Shown piece by piece: positions 5,949 through 37,441 of a stretch of DNA of 64,000 nt. Each line of letters starts with the position of its first letter. Within the stretch, counting starts at the first letter, position 1. The translations under genes were made by a program, and so were the position numbers. The DNA is taken from the NCBI GenBank assembly GCA_009192285.1, contig CM018604.1, forward strand, positions 682,001 through 746,000. The letters are read 5' to 3'. The notes beneath the pieces are model-generated. The model had not been told where the DNA came from. It ran no database searches and saw nothing but the letters and a program-made list of their open reading frames with translations. The DNA is from Morchella semilibera. Taxonomy: Eukaryota; Ascomycota; Pezizomycetes; Pezizales; Morchellaceae.

Positions 5949-6136
5949 TTAGTTGCCATCGATCCCGACTCCGTGGTCAGCATAGATACACACTCAATGT
6001 AAGCCCTCTAGAAGATCATCTTATGTGTCTCTAGATGCTTAGTCTTAGACAGCGGTCATAACAGACGGCCGTTTGAAGCTATGCCGCCCCGTTTGTAACT
6101 GAACTACATGTAGCCGTACCTGCATGAACACATGTA

Positions 6137-6257
6137 CCGTAGTATTTGAGAAAATTCGTTGCGTAGCAGGGGTATGAGCCAACTAGAGGCAGTATTTAGT
6201 TAGATTTGGTAGAGAAGACCCCTGCTGCAGCGCAACGAATTTTCTCAAATACTACGG
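6137..6257. repeat. Foldback element 4 (about 36-bp arms)
   Basis: CCGTAGTATTTGAGAAAATT at 6137 and the following bases to 6172 are complementary to 6218-6257. The only large difference is a few extra bases in the right arm near CTGCTGCAGCG. The loop is about 45 bp. Confidence 0.8.
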
Positions 6258-6596
6258 CACTCTATATAAATACCGTGAGTGCTGGAACAGGTGCATATAT
6301 CTTATAATAGTCGCAGCCGTGTCTTTTAAAGATAACCGGAGGAGTTGGGAGAGGGGGCTTTACCATACAGGACCCCGATCCATGAATATTTACCCTATTT
6401 ATACTATCCACCGATCCTCGGGATTTTAATTATACTTATAAAGTCTGTAACAGAATCTGAGCCGCAATCTTCCTCGGGAAAGAAAACCTGTCGTACGCAT
6501 GGAAAAGTTGTGTATAGCATAATACTAGCTGTGTTTGTAAAGGATAATATTTCTAGATAAGCGCGCCGTAACTACATGTAGTTACTCGAGCCCTGA

Positions 6597-6690: not shown

Positions 6691-7246
6691 TAAGCTAGTA
6701 TGACTCCCGATCTTACGATATTTATATGAGGCCTAGTTATGAAGTACTAGTGAAAGATCTAGCTCCCATGTAGGGACAAACTCAGTTAACGAAATTTAGA
6801 TAGCTTAGGGGCCCACGCTTACATCGTTGACCTCCCCTAGCACATACAACGGAGAAATTTTAAAACGGAGTTTTGCTGGCGGGTTGAAACCCGCTCATAC
6901 AGAAAGGTCATTGATCTGTAGAGAGCAAAATAGTTATTCCTTACTGGCTGACTGCCAGCAGTTCCTTGGTTGATGCTAAGATAGTTGGGGTTGGAAAGAT
7001 AGGTTGGGTATTTGTTTTCGTGCCTTCAACCTTTGAGCCGCATTATATAGAAAAGGCTTGGCGTCATGAAAACACCATATGGCAAACGCTTAAACGAGAG
7101 GCTTCGCAAATAGAGGAGGGACGATTGGTATATTGGCGGGCTTACACGCACGTGGTAGCTACACTGTAGGTCAGGTTATACGTTAGTCTTATCAGTATAC
7201 ACGTCGTGTGAATGGTTATATATTGGTAGGATAAAGACATGTAGTT

Positions 7247-7372
7247 GAGTGGTGAAACCCCATACAAAATCTACCTAGCAACAAGCTTAATTCTCCATAT
7301 GCATTAAAATATTTTATTACACCTTAACCACACCTTTTTGTTAAAATGTACAAAAAGCTTCTCCCAAGGATA
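7247..7372. repeat. Dispersed repeat D, copy 1
   Basis: About 125 bp here, beginning GAGTGGTGAAACCCC and containing CTACCTAGCAAC, AAAATATTTT, TACACCTTAACCAC and AAAAAGCTTCTCC, aligns along its length with 42332-42459. The two copies are 35 kb apart. No terminal inverted repeat is obvious and there is no coding capacity. Confidence 0.7.
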
Positions 7373-7752
7373 CAAAGATAACTAGTTGTGTCGTGGTTCT
7401 ACACTTGGAACCTGGTTCCACCTGGTTTGGATGGTAATTGGCCCTTTCACGAAGGCATTTGGGTAGGGACTTGACAAGAAAGTAAGAATTAGAAAAAGAT
7501 CCATAAAAGGGAGCTAGCTAGAAGGGGATGAACTAGGCCGAGCTTAGAACCAATACATGTACATAGCTTCCATATCACATGATTCCTTTCTAATTAAATA
7601 TAAAGGTAGGCCAACAATAGTATCTCTACATGAGCTATCCCTACGGGTAACACCAACAAATTCCCTAGCGTCTTCTAGAGATCCTTTCACTACATGTATC
7701 AACGCCCAACAAACCCGACCCAAACTCCATCATCCAAAACGAGAACTCCACT

Positions 7753-10107
7753 ATGGCTCATGAGCTTCCGCATCTCCCAAAGCTCCCAAAGCCTGCTGTG
7801 AGTTCGATCCTAGATCTCACGAAGGCCAATGGTATATTTCTCGAAGACCCCCCTCCTCATGCCAACAGAAGTAAGCCAAATAAACCCTCCCTCAATCTTG
7901 CGTACTGTGTGTTTGCTGACTTGAGTCTCTAGTGGTGGATCTTTCAATCATTGAAGGCCATATAACAATCGACCCCAGGGACACAAGAGATTTCTGCGCT
8001 GCAGTAAGCTACTACAATGATATTTACAAGACCACCACTAAAGTATGTCAATCGCGGGATGGACCAGAGCTGGACACTCAGCGAGCGGATGTATCTTCAA
8101 AGATGCAAAGTCTGGAAGCAGTAAGTGAAAACATTTTTAGTAGAAACCCAGACCAAAGACTAACTTATTTTTGGTGAATGCTACTAGTTATACAAAAGCC
8201 CAGATTCTGATAAAGATTTGAGGATTGGCCTTATGTGGTTTAAGGTCCTATATTTACTTGGGGACCATGTAGCAGCTTATAGTGTCATCCGTCTGGTGCA
8301 TTCCAAAACACCAAAATCATCCCCTTGGCTTTTTAAATTAGTCAACCGAAGCAAGAAGCTGAGGGAGAGCCAGGACAAGTCTTTAGCTAAACGTAACTAT
8401 TTCAACTCCATCTAGCTGCAAACAGAATTGCTGATATGGCCCTAAGTGACTGGAGCTCCTCCAATGAGAGATTATGTCACTAAAAAGAATTCTCGCACTT
8501 ACTCTTTGGACGAAATGCGGGAGTGCATTTTACCAGACACCCACTCCAACGACGTTGAAATGATCATACGCTTGGCAAGCATTCCGGTGAAGTGTAATCA
8601 CGCGAGGCTCCTGCGCCATATAGTTGTCTCTAGCCATCATCTTGAAGGGAGGCTGACCCAGCTTTTAAAAAACTCAAAGACACTAAAGGAGATTATCTCG
8701 CATGGGTTCAATTACACCGCAATGAAGAAGTATAAGGTTCCTGATGCTGCCCATGCGATTGTAGTCCTCAATAATTTTTATGATATTTTGATTGGGTTTA
8801 TGGATGCATACGATAATAGCAGAATGAATGTAAACCCCATGGGACCGGAATTATTACTCAGGCTACAGGAGCAGTCATTGGAGCCAATTCGCTGTAACGT
8901 TATTCAGGTCGCTCAACCCAGAGGCAAGGCAATACTTCGTTTAAGTGCTGTCCACACTGGATCCTTTAGGATCTACCCAAATAACATACCTGCTCGGGAT
9001 GGAGGCGGCCTCAGATATTGCCCTCCAAATGAGGTACGCACCGCTATAAGTTGGTTTTTTGAATTACTCGAGGTAGGCCTCCCTCTCTCCCGCTCTTAAG
9101 TCCCCGATTAACACAAATAGAAACATATCTCCTCAGAAGAAGATCCTTTTGTGATGGCCGCCTGGGCACACCACTTTTTTGAACTAATCAGTCCTTTTCA
9201 GGTAGGTTAAATTAGACACTTGTAGTTTTTTTCTTTCTTTCTTTTTAGCATACTGACTTATTTATTTAGACTTACAATCTGTTCATGGCGAGGATGGTAG
9301 TCTCATATGTCCTCCGCCGGTGTGAAATGTTACCACTGCTCGTCCGCCTAGAGGATATGTTATATTACCGCCAAGCTAGAGCATGCGTATTTGTAAGCAC
9401 TACACCCCTACAACGCAGCCCCCGGGGCTTATGATCGGTTAATCTTTCACAGAGAACTTCGGATCTATCCCCTCTTGCCAATTTCTTCTCTGTTATGCAG
9501 ATTCAGGCTCTGATGGTCACCACTGCTTTGGATGTAGGTGAAGTATTTTAGGTTAAATGTATGTACCTCTACTAACTGGACGACATTTAGACTGAGAAAA
9601 AAAAGCCTTCTGCTAGACACAACCATTTTGTACTCGACTTAGTGGTAGAACTTGAGAGATTACTCAAACGTATCCTCTCTAAAACAAGGACAGAAATAGA
9701 GGCCTACACACAAGATGACTGGAATCATGGAATCCCTTTTGTAAGTCAGTTTCTTTTGATCAATCGTGATGTATTATTACTATTCTAAACGTTCAAAATA
9801 GGAAATATGCCCAGATAACTCATATCAAGTCCTCCTACGCGCGGAGATCGACTCAGTGGCAGGATCTACGTATGCAAGGTTTTTAATATGCCCATTCAGA
9901 CCCTGGCGTAGGGGCAACGTTGCTGTGTATCTCCAAGATACCTCAGGCTATACTTTATGGTTAACCTGTGTCAATCTGATTGATCCTGGAAATTTAAAGG
10001 GGGAAATTGAGAGGATCAACCATGGTTGCGGGGAGTTTCTCAAAGGCATTGAGTGCCATAAATCGAAACCAGATGAACTACCTAGGGTAAATGCACCGAG
10101 ATCTTAA
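7753..10107 (+). CDS. Fic (fido) domain protein lacking the catalytic motif; hidden 9-exon gene
   Basis: Joining nine exons (7753-7870, 7933-8120, 8188-8392, 8447-9072, 9121-9201, 9270-9392, 9453-9533, 9591-9740, 9802-10107) through GT-AG introns gives 1878 nt, a 625-aa protein with every phase consistent. Residues about 360-475 follow the order seen in fungal Fic proteins: RYCPPNEV, then DPFVMAAWAHHFFELI, then the loop, then a long helix and SDLSPLANFF. Fic enzymes normally carry HPFx(D/E)GNGR and transfer AMP or other phospho-groups to proteins. Here residues 403-411 read SPFQTYNLF, so the catalytic His and the phosphate-binding Arg are absent and AMPylation is unlikely. The N-terminal 340 residues are helical-looking and unrecognised. 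The C-terminal part (YARFLICPFRPWRRG) resembles what follows the domain in fungal relatives. The intact frame suggests a maintained pseudoenzyme. The exact donor of exon 4 (9034 or 9073) and the start are least certain. Confidence 0.72.
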
Positions 10108-11856: not shown

Positions 11857-11892
11857 TGTCCTATGATCGAGTATGCATGCAGCACCTATATA

Positions 11893-12105
11893 TCTGATAG
11901 CTTGTCAGGCCGAATTCCAATACAAGGCACTTAAACCCTTTTAACATGATAAATCTAACGCCCAGAACGTCCAGGTGGTAGTTTTTGGCACGCGCACGCG
12001 TGACAGTTTGTATCATTATTTCAATTTATTGCGCTGTTTATATCACGATTACTAGAAAGGGTTTGAGTGCCTCATTGCAATTCGGCCTGACAAGCTAGCC
12101 ATCAG
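11893..12105. mobile_element. Foldback/MITE element C (about 50-bp arms)
   Basis: The left arm (11893-11942, TCTGATAGCTTGTCAGGCCG onward to AAACCCTTTT) pairs with the right arm (12052-12105) over roughly 50 bp with a few mismatches. About 110 bp of unrelated AT-rich sequence lies between. No coding capacity is visible and no second copy was found in this window. Confidence 0.78.
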
Positions 12106-12384
12106 ATAGCTAGAGCTATGAAATATACCCGAAGACGCAATACATGTATATGTGTTCAGTGTATATATGTTAGTATCTCCTAAGCCGAGGTACCTTTCTC
12201 ACGAGTGGTATATACCTGCATATCTAGGCCTCCAGTCCAGGCAAGCAGGGCTGTCAGAGTTGATCCGCTAATTCGGTTGGAAGAAACTCATGTCAAGACC
12301 GATCGCGATTGACCAGAGCGCGCCTCGGCTTTCGGAGAAGCACATGGGTAGGTGCGTACTCCCACAAGTGGCGATTTCCTGTAC

Positions 12385-16700: not shown

Positions 16701-18329
16701 ATGCATATCCGCAGGAGGCTCCCTGCAGCGCCCAGTTTGCGCGCCGCTCTCTCGGCGGTGGTGTTCATCGGCCTGCTCCCATACATTGCAAACGCCATCC
16801 CTCTCGGACTATTGCCCCGCCAAACAACGTCGGAAACTACACCAACTACATCTCCCGGCAACATTGTGTTCACATCAGCTGGAATGTGTGTGAGGCCGGC
16901 GCCGTGGACCCAGATTCTCTCCTTTTTCGTCACAAACTACATTGCGCGTATCGCAACCTTCAAGAAGACGTCTGGCTACGAGGGATCGCGCGACTACTTT
17001 CGCACTATTGTGTCGCTGTTCGTCCCGTTCTTTGGTATCAGCGAAGCTGCCAGCACGATCGCTCGAGGAAGTCGTTTTTTGGGGAAGGATGAAATCGGCC
17101 AAGCTCTACACGCTGGAACTCTCTGCATAGTGCAACGGAAACAATCCTGGAAGCCAAAAAATGGCGATGTGATCCGCGGCTGTACTTTTGAGGAGCCAAC
17201 GAAAAAATCAAAAAAAAGAAATAGATCCTCTGGCTCCCACCATAGGGAGGAGGCGGTTCTATGTATAGATTCCCCTAAAATGACGCCAATAGCGGACCCC
17301 AAGAAGTGGAAAATCCAAGGCCAATACTCCCTCCCTAGTGGGTATGGCTTTGCAAAGTTACCCCCAGGGACATCTCTCGGAGCCATTAACCCCGCTACCG
17401 ATCGTAGCACAATCGTTATTGCTTCTTCCTATGGGACTGCAAAATCATTCCTTGGTGCCCTCCAGATCCTCTTCTCCATATATACCCTATACAGCGCATA
17501 TGGCGCCCAAGTCACAAGTTACGGCTATGCCGCATTCGGATTTTCAGTCATCCCTTATACGATCATGTCATTCCTCAACGCGATCGCCAACATAATCGAG
17601 GCGGACTACGACACCCTCTTCATGATAGAAAGTGAGATAATGGTCGAAGCCTTTGAGCGCACCAACGAGGAGTTTGTGGGTGCAGTAGGCGCACTGATCC
17701 CGGATATCAATCGGCAGGAGTACACCGACGTTAAGTTCAAGCGTCTTAAGGAACGAGGGATGTACGCGTACGAACTCGACGCCAATGATGAAGAAACAGG
17801 CAGGAGGTGGAAAGTAATCGAGGTAGAACCCCCCGGCACCGAATTCGCACTCGCGGCACAGAGGCTCGATCAGCACCTAGCGAATCCGCAGCTACCCCTT
17901 CCAATGGTAGAGCAGAAAGAACCTGTGTCAACCAGTCATTGCACAAAAATCATCATTCCTAGTGCGGGCCAGTATCAGCGCAGGAAGAAGGAGGTCAAGA
18001 AGTCGGACCGCTTCTACTCCCAATCGGTAAACATAATCATCATCAGCGCACTCATCTTGCCGTATATTCTTGTTGGCGCACTATCGAGGTTCAGGCCAGA
18101 GGGAAGTACGATGAGGCAAAGGACCTTTATGATGGGATGGCTGGTGTCCGGACAGGTCATCGGCATTCTTGATGTAGCAGAGACGAAGGGTGGGAGAAAG
18201 AAGTGGTGGAGATTGATGGAGATAACGATCACGACCGTAGTGGTTATCATGGGGTTTGCCTTCTCGATCGGCGGTTTTGTGGAGGCGGGGAGAATGATGA
18301 GGAGCTTTGGATACTGCATAAGGTTGTAG
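16701..18329 (+). CDS. Multi-pass membrane protein of unknown function
   Basis: A single uninterrupted frame encodes 542 aa. The N-terminus (residues 13-33) is a hydrophobic segment ending ANAIPLG and could be a signal peptide. Further hydrophobic stretches lie at about 71-85, 106-125, 250-300 (two to three segments), 447-462 and at the C-terminus near 515-533. A KR-rich loop (TKKSKKRNR, near 170) and a mostly hydrophilic region (300-440) separate the membrane parts. This resembles an uncharacterised membrane family of Pezizomycotina with CVRPAPW near the N-terminus; no function is known to me. It is intronless, unlike its neighbours. The ATG at 16701 is preferred because the hydrophobic segment follows directly. 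Confidence 0.75.
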   Translation: MHIRRRLPAAPSLRAALSAVVFIGLLPYIANAIPLGLLPRQTTSETTPTTSPGNIVFTSAGMCVRPAPWTQILSFFVTNYIARIATFKKTSGYEGSRDYFRTIVSLFVPFFGISEAASTIARGSRFLGKDEIGQALHAGTLCIVQRKQSWKPKNGDVIRGCTFEEPTKKSKKRNRSSGSHHREEAVLCIDSPKMTPIADPKKWKIQGQYSLPSGYGFAKLPPGTSLGAINPATDRSTIVIASSYGTAKSFLGALQILFSIYTLYSAYGAQVTSYGYAAFGFSVIPYTIMSFLNAIANIIEADYDTLFMIESEIMVEAFERTNEEFVGAVGALIPDINRQEYTDVKFKRLKERGMYAYELDANDEETGRRWKVIEVEPPGTEFALAAQRLDQHLANPQLPLPMVEQKEPVSTSHCTKIIIPSAGQYQRRKKEVKKSDRFYSQSVNIIIISALILPYILVGALSRFRPEGSTMRQRTFMMGWLVSGQVIGILDVAETKGGRKKWWRLMEITITTVVVIMGFAFSIGGFVEAGRMMRSFGYCIRL

Positions 18330-29809: not shown

Positions 29810-30577
29810 ATGTACGGTGTCCCATCCAAATTTTTCACTTCTAATCCTCCCGATACTGACAGGTATACCTCGTTCATTATAGCTGGAAAGACTCGCTGCT
29901 CGGTTTGCCTGAAATATTACAAGGGCCATAATCTAAGAGTTCTCCCTCATTGTGCCCATAGCTACTGCCGACTATGCCTCCGCCGAACCTTCTCACGCCT
30001 TCTAGCCGAGACCGAAAATAGTGTACCTCCTCGCTGTTGTGGACACGAAATCACCCTTGCAATCGCTGGTGACTTTCTTGACGGCGTTGAGAGCCCCACT
30101 GATAAGATTGGACTCAAAGAGCAGTATCTACAGGCCCTTGAAAGACGTACAAACGACCCTATATTCTGTGCGAGAGGATGTATTAAAGATGGGTTCAATG
30201 CTGGGCACCTGGAGCCAGGTATTAAAAAGGAGTTCTTCATTACCCCAGAGGAAATAAAAGAAGAAGAGGACCTGGCAGTCTGCGGCAAATGCAAGGGGGG
30301 TACCTGCACTCTTTGCAAGATGCCAGCACCCCACGCGCCTGGGGAATGTAAGATTGAGGATGAGGCCGAAAAGGAGGAGATAAGATATAGGCGATTGAGC
30401 GGAAAAAACGGGTGGAGATGCTGCGATTCTTGTGGTATGATGGTCAGCAGGGATGTTGGCTGCGCACACGTTGTCTGCAGGTATGAAAACCTTTTAATGC
30501 ATACGATGAATCGAAGTTCTATTTTATTGATTATGCCGATCGACAGGTGCGGAAATGACGTCTGGCTCGCATTCTAG
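29810..30577 (+). CDS. RBR-type RING E3-like protein, C-terminus shortened
   Basis: Two exons (29810-30480 and 30547-30577) encode about 233 aa. RING1-like cysteines are CSVC, CAHSYCRLC and PPRCC near residues 30-80. An IBR-like block CGKCKGGTCTLCKMPA follows, then RING2: WRCCDSCGMMVSRD and GCAHVVCRCG. The Cys in VGCAHV corresponds to the catalytic Cys of RBR ligases, which pass ubiquitin through a thioester. The 66-bp intron joins VCR to CGNDVWLAF and then a stop, so the final Cys pair of RING2 (the usual FCYxCG) is missing. The upstream helical region typical of the fungal family was not found, and an in-frame stop lies shortly upstream of the chosen ATG; an exon start after CTTAG at about 29760 is possible. 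It may be a truncated, decaying copy. Confidence 0.65.
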   Translation: MYGVPSKFFTSNPPDTDRYTSFIIAGKTRCSVCLKYYKGHNLRVLPHCAHSYCRLCLRRTFSRLLAETENSVPPRCCGHEITLAIAGDFLDGVESPTDKIGLKEQYLQALERRTNDPIFCARGCIKDGFNAGHLEPGIKKEFFITPEEIKEEEDLAVCGKCKGGTCTLCKMPAPHAPGECKIEDEAEKEEIRYRRLSGKNGWRCCDSCGMMVSRDVGCAHVVCRYENLLMHTMNRSSILLIMPIDRCGNDVWLAF

Positions 30578-35615: not shown

Positions 35616-37441
35616 ATGTCAAAGACCTTCAAGCTGTCCGAGGTAGCAGAGCATAAAAAGCCAGACTCTCTGTGGATTGTTGTTGAGGGTGATGTATACG
35701 ATGTGACGAAGGTTTGTCTTATGTACCTGTCCACCCCCCATTCGGCTGCTTGCCGTCAACGCGTAAAGTAAATAAAAGACTAACGCGCCATAATACGACA
35801 GTTTGCAGATGAGCATCCCGGAGGAAAGAAGATCCTCCAGCGAGTAGGCGGCAAGGATGCAACCGCTCAGTTTTGGAAATACCACAACGAAGCCATCCTC
35901 AAGAAATACAAGCCTAAGCTTATGATCGGTTCATTAGAGGGCAAGGCTGTACCTGAGCCTCCAAAGGAAGAACCTAAGGCAGCTGAACCCAAGGTTGCAG
36001 AGCCAAAGAAGGTTGAAGAGCAGGCGCTCGTACCTATGCAAGCCGGCCCAGTCGCGCCTGCCCCAGCAGAAGAGACATTGGCGGAAGCTTTGGAGCCATG
36101 GGGTGACATGATCCCTTACGGCGATCCGGCCTGGTACCAAGGCTACCATTCACCTTACTACAATGAGACCCACGCCGCGCTTAGAGCAGAGGTTAGGGCT
36201 TGGGTGGAAGAGAAGATTGAGCCGCACCTTAACGAGTGGGAGAAGGACAAGTTTGTACCGGTTGAAATTTACCAGCAGATGGGGCAGCGCGGATACCTCG
36301 CTGGGTATGTTCCTCCCATATACCTCCCCGGATACAATTATGACAGATTACTGATATCCCTGTTTATAGTCTTCTCGGTCTCCACTATCCCGTAGAATAC
36401 ACCCCATATAGGATCGCAGCTGTACCACCTGAGAAGTGGGATCTCTTCCACGAGTTCATTGTCACGGATGAAATTTCACGCACTGGCTCCGGCGGTTTTG
36501 TCTGGAATATGATCGGAGGTTACGCCATTGGTTTACCCCCCGTCATGAAATTCGGCAAGAAAGAGCTTAAAGACCGCATCGTCCCCGGTATCCTCAAGGG
36601 TGAAAAGCGTATCTGCTTGTGTATCACCGAGCCTGACGCGGGATCTGATGTCGCAAACCTAACCTGTGAGGCCAAGAAGACCCCCGACGGCAAGCACTAT
36701 ATTGTCAATGGCGAGAAGAAGTGGATTACCAACGGTGTCTGGTCTGATTATTTCACTGTGGCCGTCCGTACAGGCGGACCCGGTATGGGCGGTGTTTCTG
36801 TCCTCCTCATTGAGCGTAGCGAAGGTGTCACAACGCGCGAAATGGATTGCCAGGGAGTTCACGGATCAGGAACTACTTACGTTACCTTCGAGGACGTTAA
36901 GGTTCCCGTTGAGAACCTTATTGGCAAGGAGAATGCTGGTTTCAAGGTCATCATGACAAACTTCAACCATGAGCGTGTTGGAATCATTATCCAGTGCACA
37001 CGCTTCTCACGTGTATGTTACGAGGAGTCTATGAAGTACGCTAACAAGCGCCGTACGTTTGGAAAGAAGCTCATCGAGCACCCTGTCATCCGTTTGAAGC
37101 TTGCAAACATGGCAAGACAGGTGGAGGCTACACACAACTGGCTGGAAAACCTCATTTACCAGTGTATGAAAATGGGTGAGACCGAGGCGATGTTCAAGCT
37201 GGGCGGTGCTATTGCTGGGCTCAAGGCTCAAGCCACCACCACATTTGAGTTCTGTGCTCGTGAGGCCGTCCAGATTTTTGGTGGTATCGGATACACCAAA
37301 GGTGGCCAGGGCGCAAAGGTCGAGAGGCTGTATCGGGATGTTAGAGGTTACGCCATTCCTGGAGGTAGTGAGGAGATTATGTTGGATCTCAGCATTAGAC
37401 AGTCGATGAGGGTGCATAAGGCACTGGGGATGAAACTGTAG
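35616..37441 (+). CDS. Cytochrome b5 / acyl-CoA dehydrogenase fusion
   Basis: Three exons (35616-35711, 35802-36304, 36370-37441) give 1671 nt and 556 aa. Residues 5-78 form a cytochrome b5 domain with the haem ligands His37 (DEHPGGKK) and His60 (WKYHNE). A Pro/Ala/Glu/Lys-rich linker (about 80-135) joins it to a full acyl-CoA dehydrogenase domain. That domain shows ITEPDAGSD, the FAD-binding stretch KKWITNG, and FGGIGYTKG. Glu401 in NHERVG sits where long-chain and isovaleryl-CoA dehydrogenases place the catalytic base; the later loop IPGGSEEI lacks the Glu position used by medium-chain enzymes. The reaction should be alpha,beta-dehydrogenation of an acyl-CoA with FAD, with the b5 domain as a possible electron partner. 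This fusion is known in fungi. The true acyl substrate is unknown. Frame and splice sites are clean. Confidence 0.93.

Follow-up and report, generated by a model that had tools for sequence, protein, structure and literature searches.

Degenerate Fic proteins are already known. The Fic domain of BepC from Bartonella is reported to act non-catalytically by binding other proteins (PMC7842960), and AvrB is described as possessing a Fic-like fold without the catalytic motif, its link to Fic having been made by structure with no significant sequence match (PMC2686095). In clade D2 of the Doc proteins, which is described as bacterial, a glutamine takes the place of the catalytic histidine (PMC4454073). 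With regard to fungi, a 2025 review gives Fic proteins as absent (PMC12409994), and a 2009 survey attributes them to a few fungi (PMC2686095).

No paper was found on Fic or Fido-domain proteins of Morchella or on the three homologues described below. Among the titles and abstract starts of the literature on degenerate or fungal Fic proteins, no fungal pseudo-Fic was found, and the case of the morel presented here was itself not found described in the literature searched. Fungal proteins carry Fido domain annotations in public databases.

Gene structure, homologues and genomic surroundings

The window, i.e. the whole stretch of 64,000 nucleotides that was analysed, had been predicted to contain a nine-exon gene in a region where no single frame exceeds 220 codons. 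This gene model held. Its nine exons (Table 1; 7753-10107, + strand) join in phase to 1,869 nt, encoding 622 aa and a single terminal stop, and no internal stop occurs in the spliced frame, which is thus intact as proposed. All eight introns are bounded by GT and AG and are 48-68 nt long; a simple branch-like word (CTRAY) is present in five of them, and the GC content is 0.446 in the exons versus 0.387 in the introns. The longest frame of the region started by ATG, GTG or TTG comprises 217 aa (8446-9099). Intron 3 has two usable 3' ends, 8446 (AAG) or 8455 (GAG), which lie 9 nt apart and are both in phase. Because the original prediction took this intron to end at 8446, it arrived at 625 rather than 622 aa and placed the active-site loop at residues 403-411. 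In the numbering of 622 aa used here, RYCPPNEV starts at residue 357, DPFVMAAWAHHFFELI at 384, SPFQTYNLF at 400 and SDLSPLANFF at 447.

Table 1. Parts of the gene and their positions in the window
Feature	Position	Strand	Remarks
Exon 1	7753..7870	+	aa 1-39 plus one base, ATG start; splice model; 10/22 identical to the M. conica protein where aligned
Exon 2	7933..8120	+	best-conserved segment; 45/61 identical to the M. conica protein
Exon 3	8188..8392	+	N-terminal helical region together with exon 2; 46/68 identical to the M. conica protein
Exon 4	8456..9072 (or 8447-9072)	+	pre-core region and first part of the Fic core; 60/124 and 35/67 identical to the M. conica protein
SHHLEG, aa 230-235	8632..8649	+	weak fit to the class II inhibitory motif (S/T)xxxE(G/N)
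GSFRIYPNNIPARDGGGLRYCP, aa 339-360	8959..9024	+	Fic flap (target-docking hairpin) region, by alignment to bacterial Fics
Exon 5	9121..9201	+	Fic helix DPFVMAAWAHHFFELI and first loop half SPFQ (9190-9201)
Exon 6	9270..9392	+	second loop half TYNLFMAR (9270-9293) and next helix; 30/41 identical to the M. conica protein
Exon 7	9453..9533	+	region of SDLSPLANFF; 13/27 identical to the M. conica protein
Exon 8	9591..9740	+	splice model; 21/50 identical to the M. conica protein
Exon 9	9802..10107	+	C-terminal domain and stop, holds YARFLICPFRPWRRGNVAVYLQ; 48/93 identical to the M. conica protein

A search of 5.8 billion proteins yielded three matches, all from Morchella. The best one was a protein of M. 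conica (P0001; E 9.7e-184, 51% identity over 94% of the query), followed by proteins of M. snyderi (P0002; 44% over 96%) and M. sextelata (P0003; 53% over 35%); no protein of M. crassipes for this gene was among the matches. The identity of these congeners to the protein of the window amounts to 44-53% by BLASTP and to 53-57% in the MAFFT alignment. A profile of the homologues returned the same three again and no additional ones among the candidates scored; each of the two full-length protein searches scored no more than about 7,990 candidates, and distant relatives may have been missed. M. conica and M. sextelata are black morels. M. snyderi is described as a black morel as well (PMC7014384).

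The homology to the three Morchella proteins excludes chance as the origin of the frame, and on these sequence grounds the gene is considered real. Exon 4 alone would be hard to obtain by chance in the flanks, since a stop-free stretch of 615 nt begins at none of 12,785 positions when the two flanks are joined (+ strand). When the protein was aligned to that of M. conica with MAFFT, junctions 1, 2, 6, 7 and 8 were crossed without gaps and the acceptor of intron 5 was also supported; junction 3 lies in a gapped part of this alignment, and none of the three homologues extends over junction 4 or the donor of intron 5, the two borders of exon 5. An alternative acceptor of intron 4 at 9136 (CTCAG) was rejected: from the GAG/GT donors at 9034 and 9073 it leads into the next frame and to a stop, and with the weak donor at 9050 the frame is kept, but the helix that aligns with Fic is dropped.

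In the genome searched (56,756,124 bases in 23 contigs, the window belonging to contig C2), the DNA of the gene body matched one place, i.e. itself, and the protein search gave seven matches, all of them exons of the same gene. The suggestion that the gene might have been recently duplicated finds no support in this single genomic place. The surroundings are repeat-rich, as had been stated: within 4.5 kb on either side, short dispersed repeats occur with at least 75 and at least 69 matches, self included (40 candidates scored each). One of them, at 6134-6260, is a short MITE-like element with inverted arms of 36 nt (92% complementary) and many copies genome-wide. Another dispersed repeat, at 7243-7477, has complete or partial copies of 68-93% identity; only about 275 bases separate its end from the start codon, and it may be part of the promoter of the gene. 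Downstream, a dispersed repeat of 219 nt at 11891-12109 with near-terminal inverted arms of 24 nt (96% complementary) is likewise present in many copies.

A second Fic gene was sought in the genome with PF02661 and with the bacterial Fic protein P0004, and no match was obtained with the exons read singly; the PF02661 search missed even the gene described here, so that an active Fic may still be present in the genome. A search of the DNA for the pattern HPFx(D/E)GNG gave one hit, on contig C5, and no Fic protein was recognised in the frames around it.

Other open frames of the window are one of 542 aa at 16701-18329 (+), which showed no Pfam match at E 0.01, one at 36509-37441 with a match to acyl-CoA dehydrogenase (E 2.8e-41), and one at 29810-30577 with a weak match to RING-type zinc fingers (best E 3.8e-5, just under the cut-off of that model; PF00097 just over its own). 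Concerning the assembly, the contig pairs C9/C10, C12/C13 and C21/C22 were each identical over all 4001 bases of one sampled place. C9/C10 agreed over 2001 of 2001 bases in two additional samples and C12/C13 in one, whereas for C21/C22 a second sample found no counterpart within the 9.5 kb examined. Some scaffolds of the assembly thus seem to be redundant, and its size and number of genes would be overestimated accordingly.

Fic homology and the active-site loop

The protein was matched by the Pfam model Fic/DOC (PF02661) with 24.6 bits at a curated cut-off of 24 (aa 339-418). A phmmer search of the core against the PDB returned 18 sequences at E up to 10, of which 17 are named Fic or FICD and one (9vjc) protein adenylyltransferase; two of these were under 0.01 (3cuc, 2.1e-4; 7cb8, 0.0066), the other sixteen between 0.033 and 1.2. 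A profile including the three homologues, which do not contain exon 5, was weaker against the PDB (3cuc at 0.77). The nearest Fic found was P0004 (30% identity over 149 aa), which carries a precomputed Pfam Fic match and was obtained with E 1.5e-7 in a search of 5.8 billion proteins with this region. With hhalign, the comparison to a profile of eight canonical Fics (seven after filtering) reached a probability of 97.4% and an E value of 1e-11, which refers to one single comparison and to residues 283-441 only. Against nine canonical Fics the core scored 13.1-49.3 bits, whereas the highest score of 200 shuffles compared with these proteins was 7.1 bits. In a tblastn search of plasmids, 19 of the best 20 of 146 records were annotated as Fic family or Fic/DOC and one was unannotated (best E 5e-4; most rows are not significant singly, many being at E 5). 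The assignment to the Fic family, which had rested on the order of motifs, is thus borne out by the Pfam profile, the PDB chains, P0004 and hhalign, which all agree, and the protein is, as judged from its sequence, a Fic homologue.

Beyond the Fic core, no similarity to the canonical bacterial Fics was detected. A C-terminal domain shared with Fics of the type of P0004 and L009 was considered and found no support, as hhalign of profile A1 and the two-sequence profile A5 aligned only columns 187-411, running through the Fic core, with a probability of 8%. Genome contigs were scanned among prokaryotes only; P0004 gave no match there, and profile A5 gave one relative from Corynebacterium (L017).

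The inhibitory motif is present in eight of the nine yardsticks. A match to (S/T)xxxE(G/N) arises within residues 215-290 in a fraction of 0.0375 of 2000 shuffles, the distance from its Glu to the loop is 166 residues versus 129-154 in the three yardsticks measured, and MAFFT did not align SHHLEG with the motif of the yardsticks. The M. conica protein keeps the LEG, and the first S is replaced by N.

Structural data refer to the M. conica protein, whose model comprises no exon 5 and has a mean pLDDT of 41.5. Foldseek found 456 matches at E up to 10 and none at 0.001; Fic chains were not among the best 50 rows of each search, which is uninformative on the fold as this model is without exon 5. 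Its C-terminal part shows middling confidence and no trusted match, and a TPR-like N-terminal region is seen only in this low-confidence model.

The original prediction also claimed the loss of the catalytic motif, and here the alignment is clear: in an ungapped alignment with nine canonical yardsticks, all of which possess the full motif, HPFxDGNGRxxR reads SPFQTYNLFMAR in the morel protein. The catalytic form HPFx(D/E)GNGR with its His is replaced by SPFQTYNLF. Four of the nine fixed residues are kept (P, F, N and the second R), and the losses are His to Ser, Asp to Thr, Gly to Tyr, Gly to Leu and the first Arg to Phe. Intron 5 splits the loop between Q and T. The position of the His can be read only in the protein of the window and not in the homologues. 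The second loop half, TYNLFMAR, is identical in all four Morchella proteins, and because of this identity four of the five losses would be old by parsimony: those of Asp, both Gly and the first Arg would predate the split between M. crassipes and the black morels, the source being taken as the yellow morel M. crassipes. This split is dated to about 33.98 Mya (PMC7014384).

Possible use of exon 5 and probable selection on the protein

The weight of this finding depends on the expression of exon 5. The exon was accepted because its Fic similarity carries the Pfam match; a form without exon 5 and the last 13 residues of exon 4 gave no Pfam match at E 10, and PF02661 matched none of the three Morchella homologues. 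In all three annotated homologues the segment of exon 5 (SPFQ) is missing. They exit at three different upstream residues (after RTA, GE and FDLI) and all re-enter at TYNLF; the proteins of M. snyderi (525 aa) and M. sextelata (434 aa) also lack further inner stretches. All these sequences are public gene models of uncertain annotation quality, and the gap may stem from overlooked exons, from true skipping or from true damage to the genes. It is common for annotation to overlook short exons.

It is conceivable, although we consider it rather unlikely, that the mature mRNA skips exon 5 as in the annotated homologues, by joining 9033 to 9270 (in phase, with an intron of 236 nt) or by use of a nearby donor. 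Such a product would retain the flap and the helix that follows the loop, without the Fic core helix and the start of the loop, and exon 5 would be an intronic relic. The uniform re-entry of all three homologues speaks for this, as does the donor GAG/GTACGC at 9034, which ties with the donor at 9073 (consensus count 6/9 each), and an open stretch of 81 nt is common by chance (2800 of 13319 flank positions). On the other hand, exon 5 still carries the Pfam Fic score, which is judged unlikely after a long time without constraint, and its own donor CAGGTAGGT (9202) has the top consensus count of the nine donors compared (8/9); furthermore, the homologue models that suggest skipping are annotations of the quality mentioned above.

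In the alignment with the M. conica protein, 308 of 553 columns are identical, and the mismatches have a mean BLOSUM62 score of -0.06. Neutral simulations at the same identity gave -0.64 (sd 0.10, kappa 2) and -0.56 (sd 0.11, kappa 4), and the observed value was reached by none of the 300 runs at either kappa. This comparison covers one protein pair with exon 5 excluded, and the alignment itself favours similar residues. One neutral lineage would be expected to accumulate 6.3 (kappa 2) or 5.1 (kappa 4) stops; as the lowest counts among the runs were 0 and 1, respectively, a stop-free frame carries only modest weight. The longest identical run of 13 residues is ordinary for neutral runs (mean 9.9, maximum 20) and counts against strong local constraint. 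In the flap (aa 337-366), 18 of 30 residues are identical to the M. conica protein, which is little above the overall value, and in the helix after the loop 21 of 27. The comparison with neutral simulations supports purifying selection on the protein sequence without proving it. The earlier idea of a maintained pseudoenzyme is in part strengthened by the loss of the motif, the intact frame and replacements towards M. conica that are milder than in the neutral simulations.

A former Fic gene in slow decay, in which catalysis was lost first, other morels lost more and the copy of the window is the least damaged one, would explain why the congeners are only 44-53% identical (BLASTP), why inner segments are missing in those of M. 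snyderi and M. sextelata, and why a single copy lies amid dispersed repeats. We regard such a decay as unlikely, since 622 codons without stop or frameshift and eight in-phase GT-AG introns oppose it, and so do replacements more conservative than the simulated neutral range and the good conservation of exons 2, 3 and 6.

Proposed role and comparison with known systems

In Fic biochemistry, the His of the motif acts as general base, the Asp as metal ligand, and the glycines form the phosphate-binding turn; the flap docks the target peptide. With His replaced there would be no general base in the morel protein and with Asp replaced no metal ligand, and a phosphate-binding turn is unlikely to form where Tyr and Leu have replaced the two Gly. 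AMP transfer should be absent because the base, the metal ligand and the phosphate-binding glycines are gone. Retained enzymatic activity, by catalytic residues at other positions or by another kind of chemistry, might be argued from the conserved second loop half (TYNLFMAR in 4/4), the retained second Arg and the precedent of SelO, described as a pseudokinase with another chemistry (PMC8097203), but is very improbable with five of nine motif positions changed, including the base, the metal ligand and both glycines.

Our favoured reading, held with evenly divided confidence, is that of a Fic-derived protein which has lost nucleotidyl transfer and is retained for what its surfaces bind, i.e. 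a binder or scaffold. The flap would still bind a partner and others could be recruited by the conserved regions at the N- and C-termini, so that the protein may act as a scaffold or sequestering factor like the Fic domain of BepC. In the weakest step of this proposal, the retained second Arg would pair with Glu234 of SHHLEG in a purely structural salt bridge.

More tentatively, the morels may possess genus-restricted, non-catalytic Fic-fold regulators whose catalytic exon is being shed stepwise. The helix and the loop half with the His position would have been dropped or alternatively spliced out in some species and kept in the yellow morel, while the flap, the second loop half and the flanks would be retained for binding. 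A eukaryotic Fic homologue with a replaced active site and a preserved frame would offer a natural case for studying the function of a Fic domain in the absence of catalysis, and the differences between morel species would make it possible to compare forms that have the catalytic exon with forms that lack it.

Compared to the canonical bacterial Fics (L009-L016 and P0004), the flap, the helix before the loop, the length of the loop and the following helix align, whereas HPFxDGNGRxxR, present in nine of nine, is replaced. FICD/HYPE, the metazoan TPR-Fic AMPylase, shows weak similarity in the core (FICD rows at E 0.06-0.34, homologue rows at 0.038), and the possible TPR-like N-terminus and the weak match to (S/T)xxxE(G/N) may be further likenesses. 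Unlike FICD/HYPE, the morel protein has no strongly hydrophobic segment (maximum mean hydropathy over 19 residues 1.42) and no catalytic motif, but a long C-terminal extension. Like clade D2 of Doc as it is described, it has lost the catalytic His within the family; the consensus reported for that clade, in contrast, retains most of the remaining loop. AvrB is reported to bind ADP and was recognised by structure, whereas the morel protein was recognised by the Pfam model for Fic. The non-catalytic Fic domain of BepC changes one position of the motif (D/E to K) and the morel protein five, and whereas BepC is a translocated bacterial effector, the morel protein is encoded by a gene of a fungal genome.
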